Position numbers and translations under genes: made by a program. From Candidatus Xianfuyuplasma coldseepsis (GTDB lineage Bacteria; Bacillota_I; Bacilli_A; Izemoplasmatales; Izemoplasmataceae): DNA of 64,000 nucleotides. Below are positions 49,916 through 60,442 of this stretch, one piece after another. Within the stretch, counting starts at the first letter, position 1; every line of letters begins with the position of its first letter. The stretch lies in assembly GCF_014023125.1 (NCBI RefSeq), contig NZ_CP048914.1:1144698-1208697 (forward strand), given 5' to 3'. A model generated the notes under the pieces. That model did no database searches. It was not told the origin of the DNA and saw only the letters and a program-made list of their open reading frames with translations.

Positions 49916-49943
49916 GGAACCAATGGTGTATTGATTTGTTCGG

Positions 49944-49969
49944 AGGACCATAGACTTCTATGGTTCTTT
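49944..49969 (+). terminator. Terminator after the recombinase
   Basis: AGGACCATAG-ACTT-CTATGGTTCT stem (one G-T pair) with TTT tail. Confidence 0.7.
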
Positions 49970-50433
49970 GAACAGGTACATACCATGAATCAAAAGAAGT
50001 AGTTATGATAGACTGTAAAAGGGTTATGCACATGTGTAAAATGATTTTACAAATGTGGTAACTAGTTAATGTGTAAAATGATATTACATACTGAAAAAAT
50101 AGAACTGTAAACTCGCTTTACACCACAAATAATTCTGAGTGATTCCTCTAAGTGTAAACTGATTTTACATTTAAGGATATTCTTGTAAGACGAAAACTTT
50201 GCCAACGCTTCAAAGTTGTAGACTCGATTGTATAAGGTGATTGAAATAATAGTTGGGAATCATACATCCTACTTCACAGAATCAGAATTTAAAGCTCTGT
50301 CATTAGCTTCAGTTTCAAATCATTCACATCGAATATGACTCTTATCTAGGGAGGGCCTTTTAAGATAGAAAATGCCATGATTAGAGTATGGTATAATTAT
50401 AGTAACAATAGATTTTTATCGGGGGTAAAACTT
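49970..50433. other. Noncoding gap with palindrome array
   Basis: No gene seen. Contains four 17-bp palindromes (separate feature), then about 200 bases without recognised elements, and ATGGTATAAT (about 50388-50397), an extended -10 for the gene at 50434. Confidence 0.6.
50035..50169. repeat. Four palindromic sites TGTAAA-N5-TTTACA
   Basis: Sites at 50035-50051 (perfect 17-bp palindrome), 50072-50088 (one arm imperfect), 50106-50122 and 50153-50169, start-to-start 37, 34 and 47 bp. A single half-site TGTAAAA lies just before at about 50014. Looks like a multi-operator or iteron region for a dimeric DNA-binding protein. Confidence 0.7.
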
Positions 50434-51282
50434 ATGAAGAAGTTTGATTTGAGGAAAGTATTTTTTCAATCTGGATATTCAATAACTGACATTGCCGATG
50501 AGCTTGATGTGAAAAGACCAACAGTATACAATAATATGAAAGAGTTTGAAGAAAAACTATCATGCAAAAACAAAGAGCTCATGATGCTTTTTTGTAGATT
50601 TACTTATTATGACCGTTTCACCAAAGGTTTGGTTCAAGATCAGATTGATATGGTTAAAAATGTGATGAGAAGAATTGAGTATATTTATGATGAGAATTCA
50701 CGAGTGAAGGGTAATGAGTTATATCGAGAATTTGTCAGAGTAATTGATGATGCAAATCAAGAAGAATCTGAAAAAGATGATGTTATACACGAATCGAGTA
50801 TTGAGAACAATGAATCTGTAGTCTGGGGAAATCTAGTTTGCAATAAATGTGATGCAAATGGTACCCTAATTTATGATGAGAGAAAGGATCATATTTTTTG
50901 TCAGTATTGTATGAATGAGTCCCAACCTGAAGAGTATGGAATTACTCCTGGTGGAAAGTATTTTATAAAAGATAAAAAATACGAAGACAAAGTTTTATCA
51001 AATGATAATGACATACAGGGAAACCAAAATGAGTATGTTATAAATAGATCCAACTATGTCCAGATGGGGGATTTTATTGAAGGTGAAATAATTGGTAGTA
51101 CAAAACACGGTGTTCTCGTTTTGTTTAATGACAACCATAAAGGGTTTATGAAAATAAGTGATCTGCCAGAGTGGCTCAAAAGTAAAATTGATCTTGTTGG
51201 ATGGAAAATTATAGCGGAAATTGTACGTAAAGATGGAAAAAACCATAATTTGAAATACGTAGCTAATAGAACATGGAAATGA
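50434..51282 (+). CDS. HTH, zinc-ribbon and S1-like domain protein
   Basis: 282 residues from ATG 50434 (GGGGG 9 bp upstream; upstream in-frame ATG at 50377 lies before the -10). N-terminal helix-turn-helix (FFQSGYSITDIADELDVKRPTVYNNMKEF), middle helices, a zinc ribbon CNKCDANG...CQYC (about 149-168), and a C-terminal S1-like OB domain (MGDFIEGEIIGSTKHGVLVLFNDNHKGFMKISDLP). The combination of DNA-reading HTH and RNA-type S1 fold is unusual. Candidate binder of the upstream palindromes. Function unknown. Confidence 0.7.
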   Translation: MKKFDLRKVFFQSGYSITDIADELDVKRPTVYNNMKEFEEKLSCKNKELMMLFCRFTYYDRFTKGLVQDQIDMVKNVMRRIEYIYDENSRVKGNELYREFVRVIDDANQEESEKDDVIHESSIENNESVVWGNLVCNKCDANGTLIYDERKDHIFCQYCMNESQPEEYGITPGGKYFIKDKKYEDKVLSNDNDIQGNQNEYVINRSNYVQMGDFIEGEIIGSTKHGVLVLFNDNHKGFMKISDLPEWLKSKIDLVGWKIIAEIVRKDGKNHNLKYVANRTWK

Positions 51283-51460: not shown

Positions 51461-51565
51461 TCTCAAAACAGAGCTGGAACTGTAACAGCACAAAACTTAT
51501 TGGTTTAGAGTCACAACAATAATACTTCTCCTATAGACCAAAATAAAACTTAAGGAGAAAATATA

Positions 51566-51961
51566 ATGAAAAAAATGGAAGATTTAACAAAGCAAGAGCT
51601 GCATGAATTACTATACAAACAATTGTACGTTGTATTCAATCTGTGGCATGATGGTGATTATTGGTGTTTTAGAACTTGTTTGCCAGGAGCCTACAACAAA
51701 ACGGAAGCAAGAAACAAAGCTACGAAGTATTTTAGAAAGATAGGGCAACCTATGAAGTATGGCTGTGTTATTGGGCCTATTGATTTAGGAATGCTACCTT
51801 GGAGTTTTCGGGAGTATGACATTGAACAGGATTCAAGATTGGATGGATACGTTTATAATGAGTGGTTAAACTTTATACTCCAGGAAGATCAAGAAAACTG
51901 GGGACCATATGACATATTAGATTACTTTAAGAAGTATTGGTTTCTTTGCTTAGGGCTATGA
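51566..51961 (+). CDS. Protein of unknown function, paralogue of next gene
   Basis: 131 residues, Trp/Tyr/Asp-rich, no signal or membrane segment. Its second half (LGMLPWSFREYDIEQDSRLDGYVY...PYDILDYFKKYW) lines up with the same region of the 51969 protein. RBS TAAGGAGA. Stop is 7 bases before the next gene. Family not recognised. Confidence 0.6.
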   Translation: MKKMEDLTKQELHELLYKQLYVVFNLWHDGDYWCFRTCLPGAYNKTEARNKATKYFRKIGQPMKYGCVIGPIDLGMLPWSFREYDIEQDSRLDGYVYNEWLNFILQEDQENWGPYDILDYFKKYWFLCLGL

Positions 51962-51968
51962 TGTAAAT

Positions 51969-52313
51969 ATGAGAAGATATTATCCCGTATTCATTCTCAC
52001 CAAAATAAAATCACAATTATATTACAGCGCAGTATTTCCACATACTGACAGAATAATCAAAGCTAAAATCAGTACAAGAAAGTTTTTTAGTAGCCGAAAT
52101 GTAAAAGTAATCGATTTAAAAGGTTCAGAAATGGAAATCGATCTCTCCCAATTGCCTAGAAAAGTTAGAAGATATGATATTACCGAAGAACGTGGTTTTA
52201 GAGGGAAAGTTTACAAGCATCTGATACCATATGATAACTTCGAACGAAAATCCACCGTAGAGATATTGGATGAACTACTATCTGATTGGATTGGGAGCCT
52301 AGACAAACTTTGA
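51969..52313 (+). CDS. Protein of unknown function, paralogue of previous gene
   Basis: 114 residues, basic N-terminus. LSQLPRKVRRYDITEERGFRGKVYK...TVEILDELLSDW aligns with the second half of the 51566 product: pattern L-x2-LP-x3-R-x-YDI-x6-G-x-VY...ILD-x5-W. No RBS of note; probably translated after its neighbour. Function unknown. Confidence 0.55.
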   Translation: MRRYYPVFILTKIKSQLYYSAVFPHTDRIIKAKISTRKFFSSRNVKVIDLKGSEMEIDLSQLPRKVRRYDITEERGFRGKVYKHLIPYDNFERKSTVEILDELLSDWIGSLDKL

Positions 52314-52324
52314 ACACAAGATTG

Positions 52325-52349
52325 AAGAGTGATTTTTTCACTCTTTTTC
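52325..52349 (+). terminator. Terminator of the paralogue pair
   Basis: AAGAGTGA/TCACTCTT hairpin with T tail. Confidence 0.8.
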
Positions 52350-52362
52350 TTTATGCTAAGAT

Positions 52363-52391
52363 TTGACAAGAAAAATAAATAGGTTTAAAAT
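52363..52391 (+). promoter_or_regulatory. Strong sigma-A promoter of the candidate ncRNA
   Basis: Perfect TTGACA, 17-bp spacer, TAAAAT (one mismatch to TATAAT). No start codon with RBS follows for almost 400 bases. Confidence 0.7.
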
Positions 52392-52397
52392 AAAACT

Positions 52398-52713
52398 ATA
52401 GGAAACTACAATTGTTGCATCTTCTCCTTGATGCAGGCAACCATATTTCATGCGATAGAGGTTAGCCAATGTTACAATACTGCCCTGTAGGCATTTTCCT
52501 ATAAGAATATTGGAATATTAGATAGTGTTTCTCAAAGATTCAAGAGGATAACGCAGTGGCGCCCTATTTGATGATTGAGACCATGATTATGAATTGTGGA
52601 TGTGATGGATCGCAAATTGCTATCCGACTAGACAAATTGTCTAGCTGAATAACGCATGAGTTAAAAGCACGACTATACTGATATCAATGAAAAGAAGCAC
52701 GAGTTGCTCTTTT
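52398..52713 (+). ncRNA. Candidate structured noncoding RNA, about 315 nt
   Basis: Bounded by a near-consensus promoter and a terminator-like hairpin (52690-52713, AAAAGAAGCA/TGCTCTTTT with one bulge). TATAGGAAA at the 5' end pairs with TTTCCTATA at about 52495-52503, closing a 5' domain with inner hairpins TGCATC/GATGCA and TGCC/GGCA. The 3' domain has AATATT-GG-AATATT, GGAT..GCA/TGC..ATCC and the perfect CTAGACA/TGTCTAG hairpins. No ORF with RBS. It does not match tmRNA, 6S, SRP, RNase P or riboswitches as I know them. 5' end is predicted from the promoter only. Confidence 0.45.
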
Positions 52714-52778
52714 GATTGATGTTATGTATGGTCGTTTTTGTTTCTATATATTCAATACACATAAGAAGGGATGATTTT

Positions 52779-53564
52779 ATGAGTTATTTATTTTTCGACA
52801 TCGAGGCAGCAAATAGACATGATAAGACTGCAAAGATTTATTCATTTGGATATGTACTAACAGATAAGCACTTCAATATTATTGAACAGAGGGAGATTAT
52901 CATTAATCCAGATGCTGAGTACTATTTTCGAAAGGATGGAGTACATCAAAAAATACCCTGCCCTATTGATGCCGAGTTAATGGCAAAAGCGGAATTGTTT
53001 CCACATCACTATGATGAAATTAAACGATTGGTGTCATCAAATGTATGCATTGGCTATGATACAGCGAATGATGCATTTATGCTTCATGAAAGTTGTAAAC
53101 GATATGATTTGGCATCATATGATTTCCGATTCTATGATCTAAGAGAGATTTCAGATACATTACTTGGTAAAAGAATTTCAGGACTAAGTAAACTTGCTGA
53201 ACATCTAGATTATATAAACGAGAATCCCCATAATGGGTTATCAGATGCTGTTACTACATTTGAAGTTTGTAAAAAACTACTCAGTGAAACCAAGTATGCT
53301 TTAGACTACCTGAGATTCAAATCTAAGATATTTATGTATCATGCTAGGAATTATAAAGTCTACAAAATGGAGAATGGGAAAGAAAGGTATGTCAATAAAC
53401 GGATATTTGATGATATGAGGATTAAGGATGATCCAAAACAGAATGGGAATTTACATCAGACTTTCAAGAATGATGGTATTCATAACAATCAATTAGGAGA
53501 GGAGTTGAAGAAATGGCTAAAAGAGGCGGAGTATCAGGACACACACATACGCAACAACAATTAG
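52779..53564 (+). CDS. DEDDh-type 3'-5' exonuclease (DnaQ-like)
   Basis: 261 residues from ATG 52779 (AGAAGGGATG upstream; an ATG at 52716 lacks an RBS). Exonuclease residues: D and E in LFFDIEAAN, D in IGYDTANDAFM, and H...D in NPHNGLSDAVTTFEVC. C-terminal 90 residues form an extra helical/basic region ending KWLKEAEYQDTH. Degrades single-stranded DNA or RNA ends; the target is unknown. A 57-residue gene overlaps its 3' end. Confidence 0.85.
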   Translation: MSYLFFDIEAANRHDKTAKIYSFGYVLTDKHFNIIEQREIIINPDAEYYFRKDGVHQKIPCPIDAELMAKAELFPHHYDEIKRLVSSNVCIGYDTANDAFMLHESCKRYDLASYDFRFYDLREISDTLLGKRISGLSKLAEHLDYINENPHNGLSDAVTTFEVCKKLLSETKYALDYLRFKSKIFMYHARNYKVYKMENGKERYVNKRIFDDMRIKDDPKQNGNLHQTFKNDGIHNNQLGEELKKWLKEAEYQDTHIRNNN

Positions 53565-53686
53565 ATGACTATGCAAATCAAAATAACCCTAATAATGACG
53601 CTTATCAAGATGATTTGGATAACCATGCTGATCAATTGAACCCTAACAACGATGAATACAAAGGCGAAGAAAAAGATGATAAGTAG
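53513..53686 (+). CDS. 57-residue repeat protein overlapping the exonuclease gene
   Basis: ATG 53513 preceded by AGGAGAGGAG, in a different frame from the exonuclease whose last 52 bases it overlaps. Sequence is two imperfect 18-residue repeats, LDDYANQNNPNNDAYQDD and LDNHADQLNPNNDEYKGE, after KRGGVSGHTHTQQQ. Highly hydrophilic. The repeat style is seen in small conserved proteins of Firmicutes; function unknown. Confidence 0.65.
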   Translation: MAKRGGVSGHTHTQQQLDDYANQNNPNNDAYQDDLDNHADQLNPNNDEYKGEEKDDK

Positions 53687-56731: not shown

Positions 56732-56900
56732 CACTCAAAAAGGGTAAAAATAATATATAGTTTTTCCCCGAACTGCGATACACTGAATCGTACCACAAGT
56801 AATTACTACTAATGACATGCAGATCATGACAAATCCTTTTTCACTATTTTATATGTACTCAAATCGTATGTATGCTATAATTAATTTAGAATACATTACA

Positions 56901-58621: not shown

Positions 58622-60442
58622 ATGAGAAACAAAGATATTATCAATGTCGCCGTGATAGCGCACGTCGACGCCGGAAAATCAACCTTAGTGGATGCACTAC
58701 TTGCACAAAGTGGTGTCTTTAGTGAAAACGAAGTCGTTGTCGAACAAGTCATGGATAGTAATGATTTAGAACGAGAACGTGGAATTACGATTTATTCCAA
58801 GAACTGTGCGATTGAACATAACAATACGAAAATCAATATCGTTGATACCCCCGGACATGCGGACTTCTCCAGTGAAGTGGAACGAATTATGAAAACGGTC
58901 GATACGGTTATTTTATTAGTAGATTCTAGTGAAGGACCGATGCCACAAACAAGGGTGGTCTTACAAAAATCCCTTGAACAAGGACTACGACCAATTCTAT
59001 TCATTAATAAGATCGACAAAAAAGATCAACGAGCCGAAGAGGTCGTTGATCTATCCTTTGACTTGTTTGTAGAGTTAGGAGCAACCGATGAACAATTAGA
59101 TTTTCCAATCATATACGGAGTTGCTAGAGATGGAATTGCGATGCGTGAGATGGATGAGGACAGCCATGACTTAACACCGCTATTTGACCTCATCATTAGT
59201 CATGTCGCACCGTATCCAGATAACTCAGCTGAACCCTTACAACTTCAAGTCTCTAGCTTAGGATACGATGACTATGTGGGACGACTTGGGATTGGACGAA
59301 TCTCCAGAGGTACTCTACATGCTGGTGAGATTGTAACGGTAAGCAAACGAGATGGTACTTCGGTTCAAACTAAGATTGCGAAGCTCTATGTCAATGAAGG
59401 CTTATCCAAGGTAGAAAAAGACATTGTTTATGCTGGTGATATCGTAACCTTTAGTGGAATCTCCCATATATCTATTGGAGAAACAATCTGTGACAAAGAA
59501 CATGTCGAACCAATGGATATGATTGCGATTGAACGTCCTACTCTTGCTATGAACTTCTTAGTCAATGATTCTCCATTTGTCGGACGAAGTGGACACTTCG
59601 TTACCTCCCGTCAAATCCGAGCAAGACTCCACAAAGAACTCGAAACCAATGTCGGCTTAGAAGTTGAAGAATTAGATCACTCCGATGGCTACCGCGTCAG
59701 TGGACGTGGAGAACTTCACTTATCGATCTTACTCGAGAACATGAGACGAGAAGGATATGAGTTAAGTGTATCCAAACCAGAAGTTCTCTTTATCAAACAA
59801 AATGATCAAACCTTGGAACCATTTGAAAAAGTGATAGTAAGTGCTCCTGATGAATTTATCGGTAGTGTAATCCAACAACTCAATCAACGAAAAGGAACGA
59901 TGATTTCAATGAACACTGATGGAAGTTACTCAATGATTGAATATCTTGTCCCAACTAGAGGAATCATAGGTTATCGCAGTGAGTTCATCAATAGTACTCG
60001 TGGAAGAGGAACAATGGAGAAATCCTTTTACTCCTATGAACCTTACGCAGGAACGATTGAACGAAAACGAAATGGTGTCTTCATTGCCAAAGAAAAAGGA
60101 AAGACAATGTCTTATAGTCTTTTCCAATTATCGGAACGCGCTAGAATGTGCGTCAAACCAAGTGTTGAAGTCTACGAAGGTATGATCGTTGGACTCAACT
60201 CACGAGCGAACGATCTAGTCGTAAACCCTTGTAAAAACAAGAACTTAACGAATGTCCGTTCGTCGGGAACCGATGAAGCAATTAAACTACTAGATCCTCT
60301 CACATTTACCTTAGAGGAAGCTCTAGAATTCATTGAGGGAGACGAACTTGTCGAAATTACTCCAGATGATATTCGTTTGCGTAAGAAAATCTTAAGTGAG
60401 ATTGATCGTAAACGAGAATATAAGAGATTGTCGTATCAATAA
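58622..60442 (+). CDS. typA: Translational GTPase TypA/BipA
   Basis: 606 residues. GTP motifs: AHVDAGKST (G1), RGITIYSKN (G2), DTPGHADF (G3), NKID (G4). EF-G-like domains follow with the BipA-specific C-terminus (YEGMIVGLNSRANDLVVNPCKNKNLTNVRSSGTDEAI). Ribosome-associated GTPase for assembly and stress/cold adaptation. RBS TTGGAGGA. Single gene with strong terminator. Confidence 0.96.
   Translation: MRNKDIINVAVIAHVDAGKSTLVDALLAQSGVFSENEVVVEQVMDSNDLERERGITIYSKNCAIEHNNTKINIVDTPGHADFSSEVERIMKTVDTVILLVDSSEGPMPQTRVVLQKSLEQGLRPILFINKIDKKDQRAEEVVDLSFDLFVELGATDEQLDFPIIYGVARDGIAMREMDEDSHDLTPLFDLIISHVAPYPDNSAEPLQLQVSSLGYDDYVGRLGIGRISRGTLHAGEIVTVSKRDGTSVQTKIAKLYVNEGLSKVEKDIVYAGDIVTFSGISHISIGETICDKEHVEPMDMIAIERPTLAMNFLVNDSPFVGRSGHFVTSRQIRARLHKELETNVGLEVEELDHSDGYRVSGRGELHLSILLENMRREGYELSVSKPEVLFIKQNDQTLEPFEKVIVSAPDEFIGSVIQQLNQRKGTMISMNTDGSYSMIEYLVPTRGIIGYRSEFINSTRGRGTMEKSFYSYEPYAGTIERKRNGVFIAKEKGKTMSYSLFQLSERARMCVKPSVEVYEGMIVGLNSRANDLVVNPCKNKNLTNVRSSGTDEAIKLLDPLTFTLEEALEFIEGDELVEITPDDIRLRKKILSEIDRKREYKRLSYQ

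Follow-up and report, generated by a model that had tools for sequence, protein, structure and literature searches.

The 465-base gap ahead of an accessory exonuclease gene of Candidatus Xianfuyuplasma coldseepsis (genome of 1.96 Mb, single contig) holds a promoter-to-terminator unit that is well supported as real at the sequence level and from which a short noncoding transcript, without a likely protein gene, is likely made. The reading that we favour, with confidence that is about even, is that the region is a promoter-driven, prematurely terminated, attenuator-like 5' leader of the exonuclease gene. The window analysed is a stretch of 64 kb drawn from this genome, in which the gap separates small paralogous genes (51566-52313) from the gene of the DEDDh exonuclease (52779-53564). 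The features of the locus are the following:

52324-52346, plus strand: terminator closing the upstream operon, which encodes two small paralogous proteins (51566-52313), and setting it apart from the RNA unit
52363-52391, plus strand: promoter of sigma-70/SigA type, TTGACA (52363-52368), 17 nt, TAAAAT (52386-52391)
52397-52503, plus strand: closed 5' domain, a 9-bp stem (TATAGGAAA/TTTCCTATA) with three stem-loops inside
52398-52743, plus strand: predicted short noncoding transcript or leader RNA of about 345 nt, from promoter plus terminator, fold z -4.31
52508-52668, plus strand: middle region whose hairpins (e.g. CTAGACAAATTGTCTAG) are modest, of no significance as a whole
52556-52648, plus strand: possible upstream ORF of 30 aa, GTG start, AAGAGGA 7 nt ahead of the GTG
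52669-52743, plus strand: long intrinsic terminator, an imperfect stem of about 30 bp (to 52735), then TTTTTGTTT
52779-53564, plus strand: DEDDh 3'-5' exonuclease of 261 aa with intact catalytic motifs, its gene preceded by the Shine-Dalgarno region AAGAAGGGATG at 52763

According to the favoured reading, RNA polymerase would initiate near 52398, a start placed about 7 nt past the -10 box, and would produce the closed 5' domain and the loosely folded middle. Most polymerases would then halt at the strong intrinsic terminator (52669-52743), giving a free RNA of about 345 nt, and a minority would pass it to make the exonuclease mRNA. The terminator would in this way keep the exonuclease level low, and read-through might be raised by a signal, be it a protein, a ligand, an antisense RNA or translation of the 30-aa ORF. 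Transcription, premature termination and the dependence of the exonuclease on read-through are what we infer from the promoter, the lack of a likely gene, the 5' domain, the terminator, its spacing to the exonuclease and the upstream operon's own terminator. Should this reading hold, the unit would be another accessory nuclease gene kept low through premature termination, a layout also found in RNA-gated anti-phage systems. Given one sequence without relatives, its practical value is that of a lead.

The near-perfect promoter described in the initial annotation was recovered. It agrees with the consensus at 11 of 12 positions, with a spacer of 17 and a perfect -35 box. Three sites with at least 11/12 matches, this one included, occur on the two strands of the 64 kb window, and about 3.5 are expected per window by chance under a first-order Markov model of its dinucleotide make-up. 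Rarity therefore does not count in favour of the promoter, which is convincing because of its intergenic position; all three sites begin outside ORFs of at least 100 codons, that is, in the 13.4% of the window made up of such sequence. The G+C content of the gap (0.37) is the second highest among the 16 gaps longer than 200 nt in the window.

As had been claimed, no likely gene follows the promoter: from 52314 to 52778 there is no ORF of at least 60 aa, apart from the exonuclease frame when prolonged upstream to a TTG start. The 64 kb window contains no tmRNA or tRNA. The longest short ORF of the plus strand lying wholly within 52314-52778 has 30 aa and begins with the GTG at 52556. It is part of an open frame of 39 aa (52529-52645) whose codon score, 0.076 bits per codon, corresponds to the 31st percentile of real gene pieces and exceeds that of 93% of off-frame pieces. 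Such a score, which real genes also show, would suit a decayed or non-functional sequence, for instance the remnant of an old gene, accompanied by a promoter-like site and a terminator; so would an RNA body that folds barely above chance (z -1.31, see below) and the lack of homologues. This origin nevertheless appears unlikely in view of the quality and position of the promoter, the strong terminator and the 5' domain (z -2.74). A gene remnant was also sought in the 39-aa frame itself but is not shown: the score falls between the coding and the off-frame distributions, and neither tblastn against phages (E up to 10) nor Pfam gave a match.

The 30-aa ORF raises the question of a ribosome-mediated attenuator, in which its translation (GTG at 52556, stop at 52648) would govern folding and read-through. 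The AAGAGGA motif 7 nt ahead of the GTG and a stop codon placed 20 nt ahead of the terminator stem are compatible with such a device. However, the codon score of this ORF is about zero bits per codon, no significant antiterminator accompanies it and it is not conserved, so that we regard this mechanism as the least probable of those considered, hardly to be expected.

Folding was evaluated region by region. The closed 5' domain formed by TATAGGAAA and TTTCCTATA, already proposed in the initial annotation, is borne out at a modest level of significance (z -2.74; 2/200 shuffles fold equally well or better). The annotation had also spoken of several strong hairpins; this is true of the terminator and, modestly, of the 5' domain, but not of the middle region. 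Indeed, once the terminator is removed, the remaining RNA (52397-52668) has a z of -1.31, with 20/200 shuffles equal or better, and the subregions 52530-52610 and 52610-52660 have z of -0.99 and -2.13, respectively. The z of -4.31 of the whole RNA is thus mainly owed to the terminator. On the plus strand, the energy per base of the gap is the lowest when compared with the 15 other gaps longer than 200 nt in the window; its z is -5.12 and one other gap is alike at -5.16, values that are rough (25 shuffles each). Folding alone leaves the strand open, with z -3.69 for the minus strand and -4.31 for the plus strand. The RNA was assigned to the plus strand because of the promoter and the U-tract.

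A loop of the 5' domain, at 52422-52429, reads TTCTCCTT and is the complement of AAGGAGAA Shine-Dalgarno sequences. This, together with a promoter of its own and a very strong terminator, would fit an independent trans-acting sRNA that lies before the exonuclease gene by accident and whose loop could block translation of genes of the element. In particular, the 8 nt of the loop exactly complement the AAGGAGAA present at 51552, ahead of the gene of the 131-aa protein, and when the starts of 65 genes were compared, that of the recombinase gene (48329) also ranked with the best for pairing. It should, however, be noted that AAGGAGAA is a generic Shine-Dalgarno sequence, with seven occurrences on the plus strand and three on the minus strand of the window; one of these last three is the loop itself read in complement. 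No target is claimed for the loop, because this complementarity is too generic; lacking conservation, the RNA has no supported target. We hold this function to be somewhat unlikely, though the least improbable of the alternatives to an attenuator-like leader.

The terminator is the most prominent element of the unit. Its stem (52669-52735) has a folding energy of -34.2 kcal/mol and a z of -7.79, none of 200 shuffles being equal or better, and it ranks second lowest in energy of the 25,572 70-nt windows compared (both strands, neighbours merged). The most stable 70-nt fold of the window is found at 49921-49990, directly behind the serine recombinase gene, and is likely the terminator of that gene. 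A terminator-like stem had been recognized ahead of the exonuclease, as had a unit that ends with it. Both stand, with two amendments: the stem is larger and extends beyond the end first given, to 52743, and the RNA measures about 345 nt instead of 315, since the earlier end fell inside the terminator.

The end of the terminator is 35 nt away from the start codon of the exonuclease gene. Between the two, a consensus scan listed no promoter-like site of at least 9/12, although such a scan could miss a weak promoter in or right after the terminator. Expression of the exonuclease therefore probably depends on transcriptional read-through. The RNA had been described as independent. It does have its own promoter and terminator, but its independence is doubtful because a terminator so close to the gene, with no listed promoter between them, is the arrangement expected of a prematurely terminated leader.

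The predicted succession of promoter, structured leader, intrinsic terminator and promoterless gene is that of an attenuator leader. In Firmicutes, attenuators and riboswitch-type leaders consist of a structured leader and an intrinsic terminator, after which comes the start codon. The present region shares with them a structured leader with an intrinsic terminator upstream of the start codon, but differs in having no significant antiterminator and no Rfam riboswitch at the gathering threshold. A candidate antiterminator does exist: in folds of truncated transcripts, 52508-52526 pairs with 52672-52689, in the 5' arm of the terminator, and in the growing transcript this pairing appears before the 3' arm is made. 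Upstream complementarity to the terminator arm is nonetheless within chance: it was matched in 190 of 2000 shuffles and by 98 of 479 real segments of the window. For this reason, no regulated switch is claimed.

Searches for homologues of the RNA returned its own locus only. No Rfam family reached the gathering threshold across the 64 kb. Four weak Rfam matches (E up to 5) in 52300-52800 were rejected, all being far under their thresholds; the best of them, tsr24 (RF02577), scores 21 bits where the gathering score is 50, begins in the preceding gene, spans its terminator and resembles the RNA in A+U-rich letters only. With BLASTN, the RNA matched nothing but itself in 101 genomes, chance short matches aside. 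Matches of 25-38 nt in two others of these genomes were both read and taken as chance, one of them (L003) lying in an apparent coding sequence. Matches with E of 4e-4 to 0.01 in 23 others of 392 genomes of the phylum were, as a group, likewise put down to chance; many of them cluster on the A+T-rich 52493-52541. No copy of the RNA was found in plasmids or phages. Exact-pattern scans gave 10 stretches with 17 nt in genome_contigs and eight with 16 nt in viral_contigs, none of which fell below E 3.8 with the covariance model R1 or below E 1 with the model R2; patterns of 23 nt and 19 nt had no match in viral_contigs.

These two models were each built from one sequence entered twice. They carry no covariation signal and have little power in searches, and the genome sets of the RNA searches overlap. 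Among 90 genomes of the order, R1 gave two weak matches other than the locus itself (E 0.15 and 0.96), the better of which (L043) looked like chance when its sequence was read; in 386 genomes of the class it found its own locus only. In 39 relatives, R2 gave two other matches, at E 0.0013 and E 0.47. The first lies within an intact ORF, called ribokinase-like here from a reading of its sequence, and was taken as chance. With stricter filters, R2 too recovered only its own locus in the 386 genomes of the class. In related genomes, up to 386 per search, the covariance models thus revealed no convincing homologue. The searches yielded no homologue with the covariation by which a conserved structured RNA class would be recognized. 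The suggestion that the region represents a new RNA class of mobile elements finds no support, no second copy or convincing homologue having come out of any search; since nothing similar is found elsewhere, such a class cannot be claimed. The RNA is an orphan, one sequence without relatives.

The exonuclease, on the other hand, has relatives. Its start at 52779 is backed by homologues that align from their first residues. The protein contains FFDIE (residue 5), NDAFML (residue 97) and HNGLSDA (residue 151), which we take to be the DEDDh motifs, and their acidic residues and histidine align with those of 10 relatives picked from 29 other loci. It matches DEDDh/RNase_T exonuclease models, PHROG 192, an exonuclease subunit (E 2e-21), and the PADLOC models DEDDh (E 4e-11) and PDC-S48 (E 3e-7). 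In 395 genomes of the class, 37 others have a relative at E up to 0.001, all with at most 35% identity; searches of viral_contigs, genome_contigs, plasmids and phages yielded none, and none was found in the PDB by sequence. Thirty exonuclease loci were fetched, of which one was the window's own and two had no central ORF, leaving 27 to be examined. An upstream gap longer than 300 nt was observed at two of these (at L011 a TGA in the frame accounts for a late start in table 11, and at L020 the adjacent gene runs divergently) and measured 211 nt or less at the others. The RNA was not found at any of the 27, and neither R1 nor R2 matched any of the loci. It thus does not accompany this exonuclease family as a constant partner, and the conservation of RNA with exonuclease that the initial annotation proposed to look for is absent (0/27).

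The layout of the locus recalls RNA-gated systems. In RCd22-abiF of Clostridioides difficile, a SigA promoter, an ncRNA, a Rho-independent terminator and a promoterless gene expressed by read-through are reported to follow one another (PMC12373285), and type III toxin-antitoxins are described as having a single promoter, an RNA, a Rho-independent terminator and a nuclease gene (PMC5086642). The released RNA might by analogy be an antitoxin-like regulator that binds and restrains the nuclease. The order of promoter, ncRNA, intrinsic terminator and promoterless nuclease gene is the same as in RCd22-AbiF and, as predicted, shared with ToxIN, CptIN and TenpIN, at least as far as these sources describe them; moreover, the catalytic motifs of the exonuclease are intact and the PADLOC DEDDh and PDC-S48 models match it. 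However, the tandem repeats that define type III systems are missing: Tandem Repeats Finder returned 0 rows and 52363-52745 contains no direct repeats. The toxin family also differs, the protein being a DEDDh exonuclease according to its DEDDh/RNase_T models and neither a ToxN/CptN/TenpN-family endoribonuclease nor a HEPN-type RNase. With respect to RCd22-AbiF as described in that source, the RNA is longer (about 345 nt versus 132), lacks a repeated motif and precedes a DEDDh exonuclease gene. The abiF RNA motif is present in Rfam as RF03085, according to the same source (PMC12373285), but it matched the window neither at its gathering score nor among the four permissive Rfam matches. Finally, the RNA is absent at the 27 exonuclease relatives. 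An unusual enzyme alone does not rule out an antitoxin, because avcID is reported to be type III-like although its toxin is not an RNase (PMC10511110). On balance, restraint of the nuclease by the RNA seems improbable.

Even less probable, to the point of being speculative, is that a repeat-free RNA of about 345 nt both attenuates the DEDDh exonuclease gene and, once freed, restrains its product, the whole forming an RNA-gated exonuclease defence module that this lineage carries beside the serine recombinase. Among the entries listed in a limited literature search, no DEDDh exonuclease had an RNA partner of this type, which does not prove that there is none. If the released RNA acted on the exonuclease, RNA-gated toxins would be extended to a new enzyme fold, and only in that case would the unit gain in importance. 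The earlier idea that the RNA is part of a defence module is not upheld, given the 27 exonuclease relatives without the RNA and the lack of a confirmed defence gene among the neighbours. The only links to defence are the PADLOC matches of the exonuclease and an HATPase_c_3 domain in a 631-aa protein.

Several observations concern the neighbouring genes. The two adjacent small proteins encoded at 51566-52313 are diverged paralogues (24% identity, E 2e-6) that belong to no Pfam, PHROG or NCBIfam family; the 131-aa protein has no convincing relative in 149 genomes of the class. The 114-aa, 131-aa and GHKL-type proteins have no relatives in viral_contigs; relatives of the GHKL-type protein occur in 53 plasmid records, each with less than 60% identity. 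A protein of 57 aa, which contains an HTHTQQQ motif and several copies of NPNN, is encoded at 53513-53686, the start of its gene overlapping the end of the exonuclease gene; it has no match in Pfam, PHROG or NCBIfam and none in plasmids. Three genes upstream of the exonuclease stands the gene of a 301-aa protein (50377-51282) with weak matches to an N-terminal HTH and a C-terminal S1 RNA-binding domain. Ahead of it, at 50032-50169, a 20-nt near-palindrome, ATGTGTAAAATGATTTTACA, is present in three copies, which may be operator sites. Around the GTPase gene at 58622, synteny with two relatives of the genus is poor and an empty site could not be defined. A piece of a dispersed repeat lies at 56761-56841; similar sequences are found in the same genome (G000:C1:591084 and 595849) and in the genomes G002 and G003. 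Several copies adjoin AAAAGCCC..GGGCTTT hairpins, and the repeat, which would mark the border of the accessory region, might be a small element of mobile or terminal type.
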